Source: an uncultured Ruminiclostridium sp. (lineage in GTDB: Bacteria > Bacillota > Clostridia > Oscillospirales > Ruminococcaceae). Taken from it: a stretch of 52,001 nucleotides of DNA. The position numbers and the translations under genes were made by a program. The notes beneath the pieces were generated by a model. That model worked only from the letters and a program-made list of their open reading frames with translations. It was not told the DNA's origin and ran no database searches. The stretch lies in NCBI GenBank assembly GCA_947623915.1, contig CANQIB010000007.1:68583-120583 (forward strand). The letters run 5' to 3'. This document shows, piece by piece, positions 4,710 through 43,777 of this stretch; position 1 is the first letter of the stretch; every line of letters begins with the position of its first letter.

Positions 4710-4753
4710 TCGCCGCGTCACGACCGACTTAAAATCCGCCTTAAAAAGTAAAA

Positions 4754-4984
4754 CTGCCGCCCTTAAAGGACGGCAAAAAGGTCAATATAAAGCGGAAGGA
4801 AAGAGGAGTTTGAGGGGAAAACCATCAGGGTTTTCACCCTCAAGTTTAATAAGAGCCGCGCAAAGCGCGGCAAAAATCGAGCAATACCGCTTATGCGGTA
4901 TTGCCGATTTTTTCAGCTTGTCGGGAAATCCGACCGTAGGGAGGGTTTTTCGACAAGCTGACTGCCGCCCTTAAAGGACGGCAG
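4754..4984. repeat. Terminator-nested intergenic repeat, copy A
   Basis: This fills most of the 386-base gap 4618-5003. An element core (about 4776-4960) is bounded by two near-identical imperfect hairpins (4754-4775 and 4962-4984; CTGCCG/CGGCAG arms) in direct orientation. The core holds, left to right, a purine-rich entry (AAAGGTCAATATAAAGCGG), a stem GAGGGGAAAACC/GGTTTTCACCCTC, a stem GCCGCGC/GCGCGGC, a 10-bp stem GCAATACCGC/GCGGTATTGC followed by a T-run, and an end hairpin with CAGCTTGTCG/CGACAAGCTG arms. Read from the pilin gene (minus strand), the nearer outer hairpin lacks a T-tract and the farther one has it (TTTTACTTTTT). There is no ORF. Confidence 0.85.
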
Positions 4985-5003: not shown

Positions 5004-5699
5004 TCATGTAACGTCAGTCATAAACATTTTTGCGCCGGTAACGCTGACTTGTGTCGGAAAAGAGCCGACGCAGTAATTTCCCACATAGTCGGAAGCGGTA
5101 TAGATTATCGAGCCGGAAACGTGATCTGCCTCATAAGCGCTGAACACAGTATCAAAGTCCATCTGCGACCAGTAACATTCCACCACGCGGCATTGGCTGT
5201 CGACCAGCGCGTAATAATATCCGTAATCGTCGCCCGCCGTCTGGTCGTTTATCTTTTTGAGCAGATCGGGATCGGAGGTCGCCGTAAGTCCGAGCCTGTA
5301 GTTTTCCTCCGGCTTGTTGCCGTCGGTCACCAGCGCGACTTTAACGTCGGTAAAATCGTCCTGAGGCGTCGCGGTCGCGTAAACCAGCAGATATTCTCCG
5401 TCCTTTGCGTATACGTCATTGTCGGGGTCGCTGTCCGGCGGATCTTCCGGCAGCTTGTAATATCCCGACTCCATCGCCGGCGCGCCGGTAGCGGAAAGAC
5501 CCGTGTTATCGGACTTGTAGTTTATAAAAATATTCTGTATCGCTCTGTAAAAGCTCTCGGCCTTGGACGCCGCCTCCTGCGGTTTGCCCGCGCCGAGCAT
5601 ATTTGGAACTATCAATCCCAGAAGGATACCGATAATGGCTATTACCACAATAAGCTCCACCATAGTAAAGCCTTTTTTGGAATACAGGTGTTTCAGCAT
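5004..5699 (-). CDS. Type IV prepilin, probable major pilin
   Basis: 231 aa with a classical class III signal: a short basic leader ending KKG, then FTMVELIVVIAIIGILLGL with Glu at mature position +5. The prepilin peptidase at 15383 should cut after the glycine, and the hydrophobic helix then packs in the pilus core. The globular part (residues 45-231) has acidic loops and a C-terminal pair of cysteines (C in YWSQ region and NYCVG) that may form a disulfide. Strong own promoter and RBS (GGGGAGG), and separation from the minor prepilins, suit a highly expressed major subunit. It sits 7 kb from the main pilus cluster, with an accessory island in between. Confidence 0.87.
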   Translation of the reverse strand: MLKHLYSKKGFTMVELIVVIAIIGILLGLIVPNMLGAGKPQEAASKAESFYRAIQNIFINYKSDNTGLSATGAPAMESGYYKLPEDPPDSDPDNDVYAKDGEYLLVYATATPQDDFTDVKVALVTDGNKPEENYRLGLTATSDPDLLKKINDQTAGDDYGYYYALVDSQCRVVECYWSQMDFDTVFSAYEADHVSGSIIYTASDYVGNYCVGSFPTQVSVTGAKMFMTDVT

Positions 5700-7435: not shown

Positions 7436-7490
7436 CGCCCAGTCTGTCGAAAAAGTTATTTTTCGACAAGCTGGCAGACTTCGAGAAACA
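7436..7490. repeat. Partial intergenic-repeat end hairpin downstream of MATE
   Basis: TGTCGAAAAA and TTTTTCGACA pair perfectly around GTTA (about 7446-7469), followed by AGCTGGCAGACTT. This matches the CAGCTTGTCG end hairpin of the terminator-nested repeats (copies A-D) but lacks the other modules, so it is a remnant or independent end. Confidence 0.55.
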
Positions 7491-7598
7491 CGCGCAGACA
7501 AGGAAAGAGCCGCGATAGGCGTACAAGGGTACGTCGAGCGGCTCTTGACGCAGGAAGAAAAATGCGTTCTCCGCGCGATTTTCAATCGTGCGGAGAAA
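7491..7598. repeat. REP-like palindromic element, copy 1
   Basis: Part of the 359-base gap 7406-7764. It has AGACAAGGAAA, then a stem AGAGCCGC (7506-7513)/GCGGCTCT (7538-7545) enclosing GGCGTAC/GTACGTC with loop AAGG, then CTTGACGCAGGA, then a second stem (TTCTCCGC/GCGGAGAA, 7567-7597). The order AGACAAGGAAA...GGCnTACn4GTAnGTCGAG recurs at 48036-48086. The rest of the gap, 7600-7690, is AT-rich and shows nothing clear. Confidence 0.55.
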
Positions 7599-7691: not shown

Positions 7692-7752
7692 AAGCGTCCG
7701 AGTTTTACGCTTGAACGCTGTGCTTTCATTCTTATGAGATTTGCAGCTTACA
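7692..7752 (+). repeat. 61-bp direct repeat, left copy
   Basis: It matches 9514-9574 at 58 of 61 positions in the same orientation. Both contain an imperfect hairpin (AGCGT and CAAG arms) and end in TTGCA(G/A)CTTACA. The pair brackets the unknown genes, Nudix remnant and toxin-antitoxin pair. Confidence 0.85.
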
Positions 7753-7764
7753 AATAAACGGCAG

Positions 7765-9513: not shown

Positions 9514-9574
9514 AAGCGTCCAAGTTTTACGCTTGAACGCTGTGCTTTAATTCTTATGAGATTTGCAACTTACA
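9514..9574 (+). repeat. 61-bp direct repeat, right copy
   Basis: 58 of 61 bases match 7692-7752. It lies in the gap between the toxin-antitoxin promoter and the XRE gene. Confidence 0.85.
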
Positions 9575-9604
9575 GATCCGTGGACATTGCTTGAACTCTA
9601 TGGA

Positions 9605-12371: not shown

Positions 12372-12445
12372 ATGAGTTCAAAACTGTCCGCCGAGCGGCG
12401 GACAGTTTGATAATAGCCGCCGAGCGGCGCTCGGCGGCTTTAAAG
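12372..12445 (-). terminator. Double hairpin after pilT, with partial intergenic repeat
   Basis: Two strong stems: AGCCGCCGAGC (12415-12425)/GCTCGGCGGCT (12429-12439) and AAACTGTCCGCC (12381-12392)/GGCGGACAGTTT (12397-12408). Read leftward from pilT (stop at 12455) they should end the pilB-pilT transcript, although T-tracts are short. The second stem plus GAACTC equals a module found in repeat copies B and D, so this is a partial copy at the island boundary. Confidence 0.65.
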
Positions 12446-26421: not shown

Positions 26422-26440
26422 TTTATCCTACCGATAAATA

Positions 26441-26717
26441 AGACACGAGGCGTTCCGAAAGGAACGCCTCGTGTCTATAGAAAAGGTCAATATAAAGCGG
26501 AAGGAAAGAGTTGAGTTTAAAACTGTCCGCCGTTCGGCGGAAAGTTCACGGGGAAAACCATCAGGGTTTTCACCCTCAAGTTTGATAAGAGCCGCGCAAA
26601 GCGTGGCAAAAATCGAGCAATACCGCTTATGCGGTATTGCCGATTTTTTCAGCTTGTCGGGAAATCCGACCGTAGGGAGGTTTTTCGACAAGCTGAGGCG
26701 TTCCTTTCGGAACGCCT
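26441..26717. repeat. Terminator-nested intergenic repeat, copy B
   Basis: It fills most of the 366-base gap 26422-26787 between convergent genes. The left outer hairpin is a perfect 16-bp stem (26441-26456/26461-26476, loop GAAA) without a T-tract; the right one (AGGCGTTCC 26696-26704/GGAACGCCT 26709-26717, loop TTTC) has the same 9-bp core with the loop reversed and is followed by TTTGTTTTT. The core is as in copy A plus an extra stem, AACTGTCCGCCG with CGGCGGAAAGTT. A further rightward hairpin (GCGCTGA/TCAGCGC, 26727-26743, T-rich tail) follows. Confidence 0.85.
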
Positions 26718-26726
26718 TTTGTTTTT

Positions 26727-26753
26727 GCGCTGATCATCAGCGCCTTTTGTTTT
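26727..26753 (+). terminator. Second terminator-like hairpin right of copy B
   Basis: GCGCTGA (26727-26733)/TCAGCGC (26737-26743) with loop TCA and CTTTTGTTTT tail. It can stop transcripts that read through copy B from the lipoprotein gene. Confidence 0.65.
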
Positions 26754-26787
26754 ATCCGTTTTTGCTTTACTTTTAATACAATTTGCT

Positions 26788-28900: not shown

Positions 28901-29132
28901 ACTAACTACCGCTCTGTCTGTCGGCAGAGCGGTAGTTAGTCTGTAGAAAAAGGTCAATATAAAGCGGAAGGAAAGAGGAGTTTGAGGGGAAAACCATCAG
29001 GGTTTTCACCCTCAAGTTTGATAAGAGCCGCGCAAAGCGCGGCAAAAATCGGCGATACTACTATGCGGTATCGCCGATTTTTTGTCAGCTTGTCGGAAAA
29101 TCCGACCGTAGGGAGGGTTTTTCGACAAGCTG
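28901..29132. repeat. Terminator-nested intergenic repeat, copy C
   Basis: Between convergent glycosyltransferase and SCIFF-maturase genes. The left outer hairpin is a perfect 16-bp stem (28901-28916/28925-28940) with no T-tract. The core (28941-29132) follows the copy A order. Unlike A, B and D there is no second outer hairpin: the CGACAAGCTG end lies about five bases from the maturase stop codon. Confidence 0.82.
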
Positions 29133-33381: not shown

Positions 33382-35580
33382 TCATATCTTCTCCGCCCTG
33401 AATCTTCCCACAAAATGTCCGTTCTTATCCAGCACCGCCTCAAATTTATATGTGCCCGGCTCGTAATGCTCCTCGCTGTCTCCCACCAGCTCATAGAAAA
33501 ATACGGTCACGTCCCCGTTTTCCATCTGCTTTATCGCGCAGCGGCACTTTCCGTCAGCTATGGCGCGGTCGATAAAGGAAAGGGAAAGATCCTGCGTCAG
33601 AAAGTTGTCCCTGCTGACGGGTATATCATACTCGCCGTCGCCTGTCGCGGTATCTTTGAGCAGCTGCTCCAGAACGGTCATTCTCTGTCCCGACGCCATC
33701 TTCGGCTTTATCTCACCGAGTATCAGCGGCTGTCCGTTCAGCGTCCAGCAGGGACGCACTACCTCGGCATAATCTCCGACCTGGATATCCGCCTTGGGAT
33801 CTCTCGCCGAATAAAACTTAAAGGTGTAGCGGTCGCATACGACCTCCTTGTCGGAGCTGCGCACTATCCCGCCGCTTTCCAGCAAAGCCAAAAGCTCCGC
33901 GGCGTGCGAGGAAAACATATCGTTTTCCCAAAATTCATATCCGGCAAAATTCTGATGCCAGTATTTTTTCAGCGCCGACCCGCCGATAAGCGCCTGTATG
34001 CGTATCTCCCAGTCGAACAGCACTCCGCTCTTATCGCTCGCTCTGCCCTCTTTCAGCGAATACAGCGGTTCGAGCAGCTCCTCGAATATCTGTATGTTGT
34101 CCGCCACATCCTGTGCCGCCGCCTTGTCCGGCGCGGGCTTGCCGACTTCGACGGTGTTATTTTCCGTCTTAGCGGGCGCGGACGGGGTTATGTCGAATAT
34201 CTCATCGGTGTTTATTTTAAGGTCGGGCTTTGCCTTGTCCGTAACCTCCGCGCCCTCGCCGAACAGATCCGCTATCGACGCGGTATTGTCCTTTTCCGGC
34301 AGATCGAAAAAGTCCACCTTATGCCCGTCGCTTATTATATCGTCGGAAAGCTCGTCGATGATTTCCTGTGCGGCGTTGTTCTCGTCTTCGGGTATATTAA
34401 GGCTGTTTTCAAAGAACGTCGGATATTCCTCCGCTTTCGCCTCGGCAGCAGACTCCGCGACGACCTGTGCGACGGGTTCCGGCTCTTTGGGAACTTCAAC
34501 TACTTCCGCCACGGGTTCTGCCTGTGGCGCGGGAGTTTCCGCAACCTCCGCAACGGGTTCCGCCTGCGGTGCGGGGGGTTCCGCAACTTGTGCAACGGGC
34601 TCCGCCTGCGGCGCGGGAATTTCCACAACTTCCGCAACGGGCTCTGCCTGCGGCGCGGGAATTTCCACAACTTCCGCCACGGGTTCCGCCTGCGGCGCGG
34701 GTGTTTCCACAACTTCCGCAACGGGTTCCGCCTGCGGCGCGGGGATTTCCTCAACTTCCGCAACGGGTTCCGCCTGCGGCGCGGGTGTTTCCTCGACTTC
34801 CGCAACAGGCTCCGCCTGCGGCGCGGGAGTTTCCGCAACCTCCGCAACGGGTTCCGCCTGCGGTGCGGGGGGTTCCGCAACTTGTGCAACGGGCTCCGCC
34901 TGCGGCGCGGGAATTTCCACAACTTCCGCAACGGGCTCTGCCTGCGGCGCGGGAATTTCCACAACTTCCGCCACGGGTTCCGCCTGCGGCGCGGGTGTTT
35001 CCACAACTTCCGCAACGGGTTCCGCCTGCGGCGCGGGGATTTCCTCAACTTCCGCAACGGGTTCCGCCTGCGGCGCGGGTGTTTCCTCGACTTCCGCAAC
35101 AGGCTCCGCCTGCGGCGCGGGTGTTTCCTCGACTTGTGCAACGGGTTCCGCCTGCGGTGTGGGAGTTTCCTCAACTTCCGCAACGGGTTCCGCCTGCGGC
35201 GCGGGTGTTTCCTCGACTTCCGCAACGGGTTCCGCCTGCGGAGCGGGAGTTTCCGCAACTTCCGCAACGGGTTCCGCCTGCGGAGCGGGAGTTTCCGCAA
35301 CTTCCGCAACGGGTTCCGCCTGCGGAGCGGGTGTTTCCTCGACTTCCGCCACGGGCTCTGCCTGCGGCGCGGGAGTTTTCTCGACCTCTGCAACAGGCTT
35401 TTCGACCTTATTATCCCCTGTACGCGGTTTTACAAAATTTTCGCTGCTTACCCAGTCCGCCTCGTCCATTTCCTTTTTAAGCGGTGAATTATCTCTGTCC
35501 AGTTTTCTCTTTACCGCTACCGCGGCAGCCGCCGCTGCCGCCGCTGCCGCCGCCGCGGCTATCGCTCCGACTAATTTCAT
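33382..35580 (-). CDS. Membrane-anchored protein with 21 14-residue tandem repeats
   Basis: 732 aa, unrecognised. The N-terminus is MKLVGAI, 13 consecutive alanines (8-20), VAVKRK: an unusual polyalanine membrane anchor or signal. Residues 69-362 are 21 copies of a Pro/Ala/Gln/Glu unit (T/I/P-PAPQAEPVAEV-E/A/V-E), expected to be extended and rigid. The C-terminal part from about 480 is a folded domain (YSLKEGRASDKSGVLFDWEI, WHQNFAGYEFWENDMF, GTYKFEAVLDKNGHFVGRFR) without a known family. A repeat spacer between a membrane anchor and a globular domain suggests a domain carried across the cell wall, or, if it is cytosolic, a spacer. It follows the ABC permease by 29 bases, so they may act together. 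Confidence 0.8.
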   Translation of the reverse strand: MKLVGAIAAAAAAAAAAAAAVAVKRKLDRDNSPLKKEMDEADWVSSENFVKPRTGDNKVEKPVAEVEKTPAPQAEPVAEVEETPAPQAEPVAEVAETPAPQAEPVAEVAETPAPQAEPVAEVEETPAPQAEPVAEVEETPTPQAEPVAQVEETPAPQAEPVAEVEETPAPQAEPVAEVEEIPAPQAEPVAEVVETPAPQAEPVAEVVEIPAPQAEPVAEVVEIPAPQAEPVAQVAEPPAPQAEPVAEVAETPAPQAEPVAEVEETPAPQAEPVAEVEEIPAPQAEPVAEVVETPAPQAEPVAEVVEIPAPQAEPVAEVVEIPAPQAEPVAQVAEPPAPQAEPVAEVAETPAPQAEPVAEVVEVPKEPEPVAQVVAESAAEAKAEEYPTFFENSLNIPEDENNAAQEIIDELSDDIISDGHKVDFFDLPEKDNTASIADLFGEGAEVTDKAKPDLKINTDEIFDITPSAPAKTENNTVEVGKPAPDKAAAQDVADNIQIFEELLEPLYSLKEGRASDKSGVLFDWEIRIQALIGGSALKKYWHQNFAGYEFWENDMFSSHAAELLALLESGGIVRSSDKEVVCDRYTFKFYSARDPKADIQVGDYAEVVRPCWTLNGQPLILGEIKPKMASGQRMTVLEQLLKDTATGDGEYDIPVSRDNFLTQDLSLSFIDRAIADGKCRCAIKQMENGDVTVFFYELVGDSEEHYEPGTYKFEAVLDKNGHFVGRFRAEKI
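34495..35376 (-). repeat. 42-bp coding tandem repeat, 21 units, with 294-bp higher-order duplication
   Basis: Twenty-one 42-bp units encode TPAPQAEPVAEVEE variants. Units 7-13 and 14-20 carry the same ordered variants (T, T, I, T, I, I, P at position 1), and the DNA also repeats at 294 bases: for example the block at 34567 recurs at 34861. So a seven-unit block was duplicated in tandem recently. Confidence 0.93.
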
Positions 35581-35609: not shown

Positions 35610-38600
35610 CTATTCAACGCTTTTGAGCGCTTCCACCATATCAACATACTTCAGCTTGCGGTGCATGAACAGCATAACCGTCCCCGCGAATACAAGCGTC
35701 AGCAGGATCGACCATATAAAACTCAGCAAATGTACCTCTCTGCCGAACATTACCAGATCTATTTCCGCGGTCCTTACCACGAAATCCAGCAAAACTCTGC
35801 CCAACAGTAGCCCCGCCGCCGTACCGAGCAGCGTAAGCAATATTATCTCACGGAAAATGTAAAACGACACTTCCTTATCGTAAAAGCCCAACACCTTCAG
35901 CGTGGCTATCTCGCGTATACGCTCGTTTATATTTATGTTCGTGAGATTGTAAAGCACTATGAACGCCAGTATGCCCGCGCATACTATCAGCACCACAACT
36001 ATAAGCTGTAAAGATTTCAACATATTTCTGAACGTATCGCCTACCGATGTTTTGTAGCTTACCGCCGCGATACCCTCTATTTTCATAAGGCTTTCCGCAA
36101 GCTCGTCGTTCCATTCTTCCGAAACGCCGTCGGGAGTGTTGAAGTAAAAGCAGTTATACGGCAGCTCGTCGTTAAACAGCTTTTGATACAGCGCGCCGCT
36201 TATGTAAACGTAATGGTGCGCGTAATTCTCGCATATCGCGGCTACCTCCGCCTGCGCACTCTCGGTATCGGACAGCCGCAGCGTTATGCTGTCGCCTACA
36301 TTTACCCCTCCCAACAGGGATGCGAGCTTTTCGTTTATTATCACATGGCTGTCGTCAAGCGTGTATTTTTCATGGGTGGTGCGGCTGCGCACGTCAACGT
36401 ATTTTTTAAGTATCTCGTCGCTGTCAACGCCGAAAATATTCGCGTCCGCGTTATTTGAGCCGTTGACGACGGTTATCTGCTTTTGGTAGATGAGCTGCGC
36501 GTCACAGCCGTTTTCGGCGAGCAGCTCCTCCGCCTCTCTGCGGTGGGCGGAGGTCATATCCTGAAATACCGCCATTCCGTCGTACAGGCTTATTTCGTCA
36601 AACTGCTTATTGAGTATATCGCTCACGCTGTCGTATACGCCGAATCCCGTAAGCAGCAGCGCGGTGCAGCCCGCTATGCCGAACACCGTCATCAGCATAC
36701 GGCGTTTATATCTGAACAAATTCCGCATGGACACCTTTTTGCTGAACGAAAGGTGCTTCCAGATAAAGCCGATACGCTCCAAAAGTATTTTTTTGCCGCT
36801 TTTGGGAGGCTTGGGGCGCATAAGCGACGCCGGCTGCTCCCGCAGAATGTTCTTGCAGGCGAAGTATACTGCGGCTCCCGCCATCAAAAACGCCACCGCC
36901 GTTACCAGCAGCATAAGCCCGAAATCGTAAGGTGTAAGGTACTGCGGCAGCTCGTACATCATTCCGTATGCGTTCATTATGATATACGGGAATATCTTCA
37001 TGCCGATAAATATGCCGAATACCGCTCCGACCAGCGCGGCGGAAAGTCCGTACAGCAAATACTTGAACATTATCGCGCCGCTGCCGTAACCGAGCGCTTT
37101 CAGCGTGCCTATCTGCGTGCGCTGTTCCTCTACCATTCTGGTCATGGTGGTAAGGCATACCAGTATCGCCACCATTGCGAAAAACAGCGGGAATATCATC
37201 GCGATGTTATGTATTCTTTCCGCGTTCTGACCGTATTCGGTAAAGCCCGGATTGTCGGCGCGGTCAAAAATATACCATTCCGGCTTTTCCAGACTGTCTA
37301 TCTCTCGTTGAGCGTCGTCCAGCTCCTCGCGCGCGTCCGCCAGCTTATCCTCCGCCTCGGTCTTTGCCTTTTCGTACTCCTTTACGCCGTCCTCATACTG
37401 ACCGAGCGAATCCTCGTACTTTGCCAGACCGTCCGCGTAGTCCCGCTCGCCCTGCTCGTACTTCTCTCTGCCCTCGTTTAGCTGCTTTTCTCCGTCAAGA
37501 TATTCGGCAAGTCCCTCGCGGTACTGCTCCTCTCCCTCGGCAAAGAGCCGCTGCGCGTCGTCATACTGCTTTTTGCCGTCGTTATACTGTGCAAGTCCGC
37601 TCTCATATTCTTCGAGCGCGCTTTCATACTGCGCCTTGCCCTGCTCCAGCTCTTTTTCGCCGGCACGGTATTCGGCAAGGCCGTCCCGATATTTTTTAAG
37701 TCCCTCGGCGTACTGCTTTTCGCCCGCCTCGTATTTTGCGCGGCTCTCCTCAAGCGTCTTTTTGCCGCGCTCATATTCCGCAACGCCGTTTCGATATTGC
37801 TGTATCGCCTGCTCGTTTGCTTTAACGCCGGCGGAATATTCCGCGTAGCCCGCGTTATACCGAGCCAGTCCGTCCTCATAAGAGGCGCTGCCCTTTTCAT
37901 ACTCCGCCAAACCCGCGGCATACTGCGCCTCCAAAGCGTCCAGCTTTGCGGCGGCCGCGGCAAGCTCGGCGTATATTTTCTCCGCCTCGTCCCGCGTGAT
38001 ATATCCGTTCGCAACGCCCTGTTCGGTGCGCGCGCGTTTTTCCTCTATCTCCGCCCTGCCGGAAACTACCGTTTCATTCAGCGCGTCAAGCTGCGCCTTG
38101 GTTCGGTCGAGCTGCGCTTTGGCGTCGTCCAACTGCCGCTTTAAAGCGGCGAGCGTCTTTTCCGACTCGTCAAGCTGCTTTTGAGCGTCGTCAAGCTGCT
38201 TTTTATAGCCGTCCAGTTCGGTCTTGCTGTCGGCAAGCTGCTTTTCGCCGCTTTCAAGCTGCGCCTTGGAGTCGTCCAACAGCTTGCGGTTCGCGTCAAG
38301 TTCCTTTTTGCCGTCGTCCAGTTCCTTTTTGGCGGCGGCAAGCTCGCGTTCTCCGTCCTCCGTCTGCTTTCTCGCGTCCTCAAGCAAGGGGTAACCCTCG
38401 TCCAGCTCGGCTTTCGCCTTGTCAAGCTGATCTTTCGTATCCTCCAGCAGCGTGCGGTTCTCGTCCAGCTCTTTCTTTGCGGCGTCCAGTTCTTTTTTCG
38501 CGTCGGAAAGCTGCTTTTCGTTATCGGTTATCTCTTTTTTCGCGTCGTCGAGCTGTACGCGGCTGTCGTCCAGTTCCTTTTTCCCGTCGTCTAGCTGCTT

Positions 38601-39482
38601 TTTTGCGTCGTCCAGCTCCTCTTTTGCGTCCGCAAGCTCTTTTTCCGCCTTTTCCTTTTGCTCGGAGTATTCTTTTTCCCCGTCGTCAAGCTCCTTTTGT
38701 GCCTCGGACACTATCTCGTCGCGGCGCAGCTCCCTGCGCTGTTCCCCGACGTCCTCAAGCACCTTTTCCATCTCGTCGCGAAGCTGCTCGTATTCTTCCG
38801 AATAGCAGTTGTACGGGGTAAGATCGTCAAAGGTCACATAAAGCTGAGTATAGTATTCTGTAAGAAAGTTTTCACTCGGTATATACGCTGTGGTCTCGAT
38901 AGCGCCCGTGCCTATGGTGGTATTTCCCCGCGCGGTATCGTCTATGAACATCGGGGAATTGTAAAAGCCCACCACGGTATATTCCGTGCGGGACAGAACG
39001 TCATTTATATCCTCCCCGTTCACGATGAATTTATCGCCTATATTGTAGCCGGAACGTATCGTCGAACCGTCTATGATGCACTCGTCCGCGCTTTGGGGCA
39101 GTCTGCCCTCTTTTATTATCAGGGTATTGCAGGGATTATTTTCCCCGTAATTATCCAAAGAATACAGCCTGACCACATCGCCCCCGTCCTTTTCGCCGAT
39201 AAAGCAGTCGGCAAAGTAGGAGGGGTATACCTCGCAGTCGTCGGAGCATTGTCTTACCGCCTCTATGTCCTTTTCGTCAAAGCCGTAGGTGGACAAAAGG
39301 CGGAAATCCATAAGGGACGACTCGTCAAAATAGCTGTCGCTGGACAGCTTCATGTCTTTTTCGGATACGGTGAGTCCCGCGAAAAATCCGCAGCCTATCG
39401 CCAGTATGCCGAATATGGAGATAAATCTGCTCTTTGTCTTGACTATCTCGGTCAAGGCATTTTTCAGCATCGCTTTTTTCAT
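35610..39482 (-). CDS. ABC transporter permease with very large coiled-coil domain
   Basis: 1290 aa. An N-terminal membrane helix (about 19-40, FISIFGILAIGCGFFAGLTV) precedes an outer MacB-like region (45-240) and then a charged coiled coil from about 246 to 734, in two styles: LDDxKKEL-type repeats (about 260-480) and Y-x-x-G-x-x-x-Y/L repeats with tyrosine at heptad positions (about 520-720). FtsX-type permease halves follow (about 765-890 and 1165-1285: MIFPLFFAMVAILVCLTTMT, IVVVLIVCAGILAFIVLYNL). A periplasm-free cell must expose it to the wall. Start ATG 39482; the ATPase gene is 31 bases upstream. It could move lipids or peptides or relay force to wall enzymes; substrate is unknown. Confidence 0.9.
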   Translation of the reverse strand: MKKAMLKNALTEIVKTKSRFISIFGILAIGCGFFAGLTVSEKDMKLSSDSYFDESSLMDFRLLSTYGFDEKDIEAVRQCSDDCEVYPSYFADCFIGEKDGGDVVRLYSLDNYGENNPCNTLIIKEGRLPQSADECIIDGSTIRSGYNIGDKFIVNGEDINDVLSRTEYTVVGFYNSPMFIDDTARGNTTIGTGAIETTAYIPSENFLTEYYTQLYVTFDDLTPYNCYSEEYEQLRDEMEKVLEDVGEQRRELRRDEIVSEAQKELDDGEKEYSEQKEKAEKELADAKEELDDAKKQLDDGKKELDDSRVQLDDAKKEITDNEKQLSDAKKELDAAKKELDENRTLLEDTKDQLDKAKAELDEGYPLLEDARKQTEDGERELAAAKKELDDGKKELDANRKLLDDSKAQLESGEKQLADSKTELDGYKKQLDDAQKQLDESEKTLAALKRQLDDAKAQLDRTKAQLDALNETVVSGRAEIEEKRARTEQGVANGYITRDEAEKIYAELAAAAAKLDALEAQYAAGLAEYEKGSASYEDGLARYNAGYAEYSAGVKANEQAIQQYRNGVAEYERGKKTLEESRAKYEAGEKQYAEGLKKYRDGLAEYRAGEKELEQGKAQYESALEEYESGLAQYNDGKKQYDDAQRLFAEGEEQYREGLAEYLDGEKQLNEGREKYEQGERDYADGLAKYEDSLGQYEDGVKEYEKAKTEAEDKLADAREELDDAQREIDSLEKPEWYIFDRADNPGFTEYGQNAERIHNIAMIFPLFFAMVAILVCLTTMTRMVEEQRTQIGTLKALGYGSGAIMFKYLLYGLSAALVGAVFGIFIGMKIFPYIIMNAYGMMYELPQYLTPYDFGLMLLVTAVAFLMAGAAVYFACKNILREQPASLMRPKPPKSGKKILLERIGFIWKHLSFSKKVSMRNLFRYKRRMLMTVFGIAGCTALLLTGFGVYDSVSDILNKQFDEISLYDGMAVFQDMTSAHRREAEELLAENGCDAQLIYQKQITVVNGSNNADANIFGVDSDEILKKYVDVRSRTTHEKYTLDDSHVIINEKLASLLGGVNVGDSITLRLSDTESAQAEVAAICENYAHHYVYISGALYQKLFNDELPYNCFYFNTPDGVSEEWNDELAESLMKIEGIAAVSYKTSVGDTFRNMLKSLQLIVVVLIVCAGILAFIVLYNLTNININERIREIATLKVLGFYDKEVSFYIFREIILLTLLGTAAGLLLGRVLLDFVVRTAEIDLVMFGREVHLLSFIWSILLTLVFAGTVMLFMHRKLKYVDMVEALKSVE

Positions 39483-43456: not shown

Positions 43457-43765
43457 TTGACCCCCGACAAAGTCGGGGGTCAGCTTGTCGAAAAACCCTC
43501 CCTATGGTCGGATTTTCCGACAAGCTGCCAAAAAATCGGCAATACCGCATGAGCGGTATTGCTCGATTAACCCATTTTTAATGCTTTAAAAATTGGTTGC
43601 TGCCGCCAGCTTTGCGCGGCTCTTATCAAACTTGAGGGTGAAAACCCTGATGGTTTTCCCCGTGAACTGTCCGCCGAACGGCGGACAGTTTTAAACTCAA
43701 CTCTTTCCTTCCGCTTTTTTTAACCTTTTTTCTACAAACTTGACCCCCGACAAAGTCGGGGGTCA
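43457..43765. repeat. Terminator-nested intergenic repeat, copy D (reverse orientation)
   Basis: It occupies the 325-base gap 43453-43777 between two convergent genes. The outer hairpins TTGACCCCCGAC/GTCGGGGGTCA (43457-43482 and 43740-43765, loop AAA) are identical 26-bp direct copies. The core is inverted relative to A-C and has the CTGTCCGCC stem module as well as about 35 extra bases (near 43571-43605) with a weak stem and TTAAAAATTGG-type sequence between the GCGCGG and GCAATACC modules. Confidence 0.88.
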
Positions 43766-43777
43766 ACATTTTTAGTT

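Follow-up and report, generated by a model that had tools for sequence, protein, structure and literature searches.

What kind of element is a string of hairpins that recurs at the 3' ends of genes, and how does it come to lie between two copies of the local transcription terminator? The question is raised by the window examined here, a 52,001-nucleotide stretch of the genome of an uncultured Ruminiclostridium sp. An initial annotation of the window had recorded four copies and proposed that the element inserts behind a terminator stem, ahead of the T-run, and duplicates that stem. This interpretation as a whole is partly supported by our analysis. The repeat is very probably a MITE, a non-autonomous element of the IS1182 type, whose targets are terminator palindromes and whose insertion duplicates the entire stem-loop.

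All four copies are real and stand where they had been recorded; a covariance model (R2) finds a conserved core in each of them. Every copy consists of consecutive hairpins and is located at a gene's 3' end. In the ORF list, copy A has minus-strand genes on both sides and adjoins the 3' end of 5004-5699, and copies B, C and D have convergent genes on either side, in line with the three convergent settings noted earlier. The body of copy A (4776..4960, plus strand) ends on the right in ...TTTTTCGACAAGCTG, and little remains of its left terminal repeat, a correction to the initial annotation. It stands between a first gene-specific terminator hairpin (4753..4775), T-tailed on the minus strand (4776-4754 in a terminator scan), and a second (4961..4984). 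Its core (4792..4857, plus strand; 79.7 bits) is a purine-rich leader with a 13-bp hairpin and the loop ACC-ATCAG-GGT, and the terminator scan also places a T-tailed hairpin, readable on both strands, inside the element. Copy B (26471..26695, plus strand) is a long form with one additional internal hairpin and a core at 26534..26593 (plus strand; 38.3 bits). Its left terminator hairpin (26440..26470) has the loop GAAA; in the right one (26696..26718), which is followed by a T-run, flank comparison finds the loop inverted, as TTTC.

Copy C (28937..29132, plus strand) is a short form with both ends present and a core at 28964..29029 (plus strand; 79.5 bits), and its RNA fold has z = -9.8. It has a left terminator hairpin (28901..28936); the right-hand partner is absent. 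Copy D (43481..43741) is a long form in minus orientation, with its core at 43618..43677 (minus strand; 35.3 bits). One terminator hairpin (43459..43480; also found by the terminator scan) adjoins its CAGCTTGTCG end, and the second (43742..43764) carries a plus-strand T-tail (43740-43766 in the scan). The T-tailed stems of A and D are thus where the initial annotation had put them. Its observation of a local hairpin on both sides of A, B and D also stands, with the reservation that the pair at B, having inverted loops, is no plain direct repeat. The absence of a transposase ORF was borne out: the sole listed ORF of at least 100 aa that lies mostly within an element (26471-26776) runs through hairpins and looks like a chance reading frame. 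Scans of copies A and D found no promoter-like site.

The window holds other repeated sequences. A 34-bp palindrome at 7440..7473 consists of two terminal repeats facing each other and is likely the relic of a solo end. A second repeat family, with such a solo facing-repeat palindrome followed by a shared GGCAGACTTCGAGAAACACGCGCAGACAAGGAAAGAG-like stretch, is represented at 7440-7530 and at two further loci (L064, about 690-790, and L063, near its start). Positions 12373-12430 resemble the optional hairpin module of the long form, with the other parts of the element absent. Direct repeats of 64 bp, 94% identical, are found at 7692-7755 and 9514-9577. Within a 732-aa minus-strand ORF, about 21 copies of a 42-bp unit (34363-35502) encode a PAPQAEPVAEVEET-type repeat, and a 1290-aa minus-strand ORF contains 21-bp periodic repeats (38121-38679), perhaps a coiled-coil region.

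Genome-wide copies and their flanking hairpins

The covariance model gives at least 46 core matches (E up to 1e-4) in the 2.25 Mb genome, a minimum obtained by scoring 75 of 711 candidates. In a DNA search, 40 of the 110 first-look places were scored; it listed 40 main places with smaller overlapping matches (55 rows) and missed copy D. Since both searches scored part of their first-look candidates, all copy counts are minima. From 71 genome stretches fetched we obtained 40 clean copies with both ends, a set that excludes truncated copies, copies at contig ends and copy A of the window. The clean copies are 195-436 bp long and their internal hairpin modules are optional. Read inwards, the left end, CAGTCTGTAGAAAAAGG, and the right end, CAGCTTGTCGAAAAACCC, are imperfect inverted repeats, alike at 12 of 18 positions; the right end in addition forms a palindrome, about 47 bp long, in which two end repeats face each other. 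Being free of a transposase ORF, shorter than about 500 bp and multi-copy, the repeat has the properties of a MITE.

To either side of the 40 clean copies, 40 nt were compared with each other, with 1560 mismatched left/right pairs as background. Direct similarity of the two flanks exceeded the 99th percentile of the mismatched pairs in 30 copies and their maximum in 24; with either orientation allowed, 32 copies pass. When the right flanks were permuted about 200 times, the observed summed similarity was never reached. The sharing of hairpins between flanks is not due to chance. Among the 30 passing copies the flank repeat has a median length of 26.5 nt (range 10-37) and in 19 it abuts both terminal repeats without a gap. 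In 8 copies the abutting repeat is exact over 20 nt or more. The T-run is distributed unequally: in equal windows of 10 nt after the hairpin, 13 of the 30 passing copies have TTTT on the right and 1 has it on the left, and 17 of the 30 have no TTTT in the 10 nt past the right hairpin.

Ten of the 40 copies failed the direct test, some with unrelated hairpins on each side or with one hairpin lost; a few, such as C2:225978, have a different hairpin on either side. An alignment with one loop inverted fits better in 7 of the 40, including copy B of the window, where the stem is the same and the loop is flipped. Flipped loops lie outside the predictions of the duplication model. Template switching in imperfect palindromes is a possible source of them.

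Gene directions around the copies were called by codon usage trained on 19 genes of the window. In the 33 copies classified (4 unclear copies and 3 with short flanks are omitted), the neighbouring genes are convergent in 23, run in the direction of the element in 6 and in the opposite direction in 4; none are divergent. The copies therefore sit at gene ends and an orientation preference is not clear (6 versus 4). IS1182 is given in the available text of PMC9208149 as one of ten IS families over-represented between convergent genes.

Sites without the element, which the initial annotation had named as the comparison to make, were sought in relatives for copy D at the level of genes, leaving out L266, L268, L270, L276 and L277. 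Two genomes (G064 and G069) lack the element and have a single hairpin at the end of the orthologous left gene. A third (G065) also has no element at the right gene, but there several other small palindromes precede the T-tailed hairpin. The comparison is weak, because the stem sequences at this site are not homologous.

An insertion sequence with related ends

Ends like those of the repeat also cap ten contig ends of the same assembly. At six of these, CAGACTGTCGAAAAAGCC precedes a hairpin, a TATAAT-like box and a site resembling a ribosome-binding site; the other four carry CAGTTTGTAGAAAAACCCC. These look like the borders of a multi-copy insertion sequence (IS) that collapsed in the short-read assembly. 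Between the repeat ends and the IS ends, 14-16 of 18 positions agree. Inspection by eye matched contig ends into four pairs that have palindromes of 24, 29, 25 and 35 bp in common; these were joined into single IS insertions on the basis of these shared hairpins, without a continuous read. The fourth pair (35 bp) lies inside a copy of the repeat, whose internal terminator hairpin flanks the IS on both sides, with a T-run on the far side only. The loop variant of this nested pair occurs in none of the 40 other copies. In 30 of these the internal hairpin is single and uninterrupted (the other 10 did not fit the strict pattern that was used).

Short-read assemblies lose repeats of this kind. PF13751 has no match in the assembly of this genome, from which the interior of the IS is missing, and we therefore infer the mobiliser from its ends and from a relative, so that the assignment of the IS to the IS1182 type rests on relatives. 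In G065, a left end 96-97% identical to the IS end of our genome is present, and a homologous right end immediately follows a PF13751 fragment. With this fragment as query we collected 61 IS loci, 59 from named genomes and two from among 353 plasmid records that matched; the same kind of search in viral contigs gave no confirmed relative. Paired ends 1.3-2.2 kb apart are found at 17 of the 61 loci, and 9 of the 17 are flanked by palindromic (stem-loop) direct repeats of 21-38 bp. The 8 without such a repeat include three with a missing flank (L116, L123 and L171), three where the ends are paired and the repeat is absent (L120, L129 and L147) and two, L150 and L158 (>2 kb), that are probably false pairings.

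An intact element from another family of the order (L302) has CAGTTTGTCAAAAAA as its ends, and inspection by eye shows one and the same hairpin to its left and right. The transposases of three intact relatives match the NCBIfam IS1182 model NF033551 at 385-421 bits (cut-off 270). On the other hand, the transposase was found in only 2 of 14 core-carrying genomes, and within the genus PF13751 occurs in 7 of 18 core carriers versus 7 of 53 other genomes, a weak association. The target duplication of the repeat (30 of 40 copies) resembles that of the IS (9 of 17 loci). Judging from these likenesses of ends and targets, the repeat is likely mobilised by the transposase of an IS1182-type insertion sequence.

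The proposal that the repeat enters between a terminator stem and its T-run and duplicates the stem thus finds support throughout the genome, in relatives and in intact parent-like elements. Mechanistically, the transposase would recognise the terminator palindrome by its structure, extruded or nicked, and would join the ends of the element to the two feet of the stem-loop, which amounts to a staggered cut spanning the full length of the palindrome. Gap repair would then copy the stem-loop, leaving one on each side. The near stem loses its T-run, which the far stem often keeps. With the T-tailed hairpin of the element itself and the far stem in place, termination would be preserved and the insertion be nearly neutral. 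The weakest step of this scheme is a part for the core, whose single strand, folded as RNA or as DNA, might have a role in mobility or in the 3' end of a transcript.

The conserved hairpin core

The core consists of a purine-rich leader, CGGAAKGAAARRGG, and a 13-bp hairpin whose loop, ACC-RTCAG-GGT, is almost invariant between species and whose stem changes on both sides. It is kept while the terminal repeats diverge. The helix was drawn by eye from the aligned sequences, and RNAalifold gave the same helix. In an alignment made on sequence only (17 sequences from 12 genomes), 99.5% of the cells pair and double changes are present in 7 of 13 pairs; the 25 double-change cells compare with 7.4 +- 1.9 in shuffles and were reached by 0 of 500. 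A model-fitted alignment of 36 sequences, which favours the helix, has double changes in 11 of 13 pairs and 72 such cells versus 21.9 +- 4.6. The covariation score is reached by none of 500 shuffles. The number of further pair types does not rise above that of the shuffles, 337 of 500 reaching it for the sequence-only alignment and 97 of 500 for the model-fitted one.

Searches with the core model extended the range of the motif well outside this genome. Of 71 genomes in the genus, 13 had the repeat by DNA search and 18 by the core model, our own included. A sample of the family had the core in 14 of 396 genomes, 9 of them outside the genus (eight with one match and one with two), and a sample of the order in 20 of 394, of which 12 belong to other families (10 to one, and 1 to each of two more). 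Genomes of the order sample have at most 12 core matches each among the matches listed. The loop is altered in the single match of one of these families (L294 in G520), so that three families are counted as firm. In viral contigs no core was found by two exact patterns, of which the first is blind to copies with the bulged A, and blastn with one 83-base core from L244 found none in plasmids or phages. No Rfam family matched the window at the gathering score or eight loci of relatives at E up to 1; a match to a known Rfam family, which the initial annotation had named as refuting, was thus not found there. A protein-coding core was considered and dropped, as reading frames, compared by eye, are not kept among relatives.

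CAGnnTGT-type ends are usual in the copies sampled from multi-copy genomes, and some cores have no recognisable terminal repeat. At 29 loci, comprising those of other genera and end-poor copies of the genus (L287 was left out), we looked for a palindromic repeat around the core. One of at least 23 bp was found at 9, six with IS-like ends and three without (L252, L228 and L295); two loci with shorter repeats were not credited and 18 have none. Around the end-less cores of L252 and L228 the duplicated terminators measure 38 bp and 34 bp. The 61 IS loci have no core except for one partial match of 25 bits at a contig end. The core is not part of the IS.

Some further observations concern individual loci. 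In three relatives (L227, L228 and L230) the core stands behind an amtB-like gene, has no IS-like ends and is flanked by two terminator copies that both have a T-run. In our genome the IS is carried by a contig end that follows a gene whose C-terminus resembles that of the amtB-like gene. The right-end palindrome of the core elements in L217 and L221 differs in sequence, being of the CAAATTGAAAAAACC or CGGTTTGAAAAAA type, which suggests a turnover of ends.

The core may serve mobility, act in a transcript or predate its present ends. As placement is neutral with respect to orientation (6 versus 4), a host function in one transcript strand is not favoured. The initial annotation had spoken of a non-autonomous mobile or processed RNA element; the genome, the relatives and the parent-like elements speak for the mobile part, and the processed-RNA part stays hypothetical.

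Known systems and alternative explanations

That no described family resembles the repeat, as the initial annotation had it, is too strong a statement. Its ends match IS1182-type ISs, and both hairpin targeting by IS1272 and a related MITE are in print. MITEPye1 of Paracoccus yeei has 18-bp IS1182-like ends, no transposase, direct repeats and a folded predicted transcript; its mobilisation by an IS1182-family transposase has been proposed, and there are 1-3 chromosomal copies (PMC11578231). Both elements are short and transposase-less, with IS1182-type ends and direct repeats, but the available text on MITEPye1 contains neither 'terminator' nor 'palindrom', whereas the repeat described here has at least 46 core matches, stem-loop target repeats and a core that crosses families. 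The IS1272 element of staphylococci removes the stem-loop and leaves no target repeat, although one branch (3b-6b) of the published model gives a duplication if the ends join the 5' feet (PMC5678879). For TnSha1, deletion and no duplication is described (PMC4923244). As far as those accounts go, both resemble our elements in targeting terminator hairpins by structure, sequence aside, and our elements look like branch 3b-6b of the IS1272 model.

The IS1182-family ISs are similar in their terminal repeats, in the transposase family of the intact relatives and in their palindromic targets. A review cited in both the IS1272 and the TnSha1 papers reportedly has some IS1182 members targeting palindromes. 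Here, in contrast, duplication covers the full stem-loop, and the abundant form is a short derivative that lacks a transposase and has a conserved core. REP and REPIN elements with their RAYT are intergenic palindromes and have a conserved motif, as here; the ends, the target duplication and the DDE-type partner are different. The bacterial MITEs BOX, RUP, SPRITE, QMITE and Correia are likewise short and numerous, with folded transcripts and nested insertions, but terminator stem-loops as target repeat are not described, and IS1182 does not appear, in the available text of the review (PMC10969869). Nor does the duplication of a terminator stem-loop appear as an observed outcome in the text available from PMC4923244, PMC5678879, PMC10969869, PMC4438569, PMC3281130, PMC8040213, PMC11578231, PMC3852290, PMC6053426 and PMC9208149. 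Of 3161 candidate structured RNAs of the human microbiome, 250 are palindromic and 230 of those terminator-like (PMC8040213, as far as available), and the core motif could be among these candidates, unnamed. Three stretches of core sequence, searched in the open-access literature, led to one paper, which by its abstract deals with human cells.

The alternative with most in its favour holds that the core came first, as an independent mobile or functional structured RNA which acquired IS1182-type ends later and around which terminators could be duplicated without such ends. The covarying stem is present in genera where IS-like ends were not seen, terminators are duplicated around the end-less L252 and L228, and, apart from the partial match at a contig end, the IS loci have no core. 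Set against this are the CAGnnTGT ends usual in the sampled copies of multi-copy genomes and the chance that end-less copies are merely old and decayed; we consider this order of events possible, if doubtful. A related and bolder claim is that one order has, in at least three of its families, mobile elements of a class defined by the folded core. The hairpin would be kept by compensatory change while the ends turn over, because its folded strand takes part in choosing terminators or in surviving there. We regard this claim as rather unlikely; if true, it would make these elements structure-guided transposons that read and copy terminators.

The other explanations are much less probable. A bidirectional terminator or REP-like 3'-end repeat, selected by the host and spread by recombination instead of transposition, would account for the location at gene ends and for the T-tailed stems on both strands of copy A. 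It is nevertheless very improbable given the defined ends common to repeat and IS, the abutting target repeats, the occurrence of both orientations between co-directional genes (6 versus 4) and the IS nested into a repeat copy in the same manner. Replacement of the stem-loop as in IS1272, with the target hairpin deleted and the flanking hairpins being unrelated neighbours, has been published for the same family and the same kind of target (PMC4923244 and PMC5678879, in the text available), and would suit the few copies with differing hairpins on each side (C2:225978). The loss of the stem-loop without a target repeat is not what was found in 30 of the 40 copies, which have the same hairpin on both sides, or at 9 of the 17 paired ISs, with their repeats of 21-38 bp, and we think this explanation very improbable indeed. 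A retroelement or an ORF-less group IIC intron is most unlikely, in view of the inverted terminal repeats, the long target duplication and the lack of any Rfam match in the window or the eight loci, hence of a domain V or intron fold. Group IIC introns insert behind terminator stems, and by analogy the target position would be similar. Group II introns, retrons, REPINs and hammerheads were also considered and dropped.

We thus return to a non-autonomous IS1182-type element that duplicates the terminator it enters. An IS1182-type MITE and hairpin-targeting IS1182 relatives have already been published, and the newer part of the system is the hairpin core in its interior, a structured motif absent from Rfam for which a role in mobility and a role at transcript 3' ends can be separated. 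The copies provide many natural cases of the duplication of a whole stem-loop, so far a branch of the IS1272 model in the text available. The IS nested in the element, together with the duplicated terminators, forms a data set on structure-dependent target choice. For the organism, this manner of insertion suggests how dozens of insertions at gene ends can do little harm.
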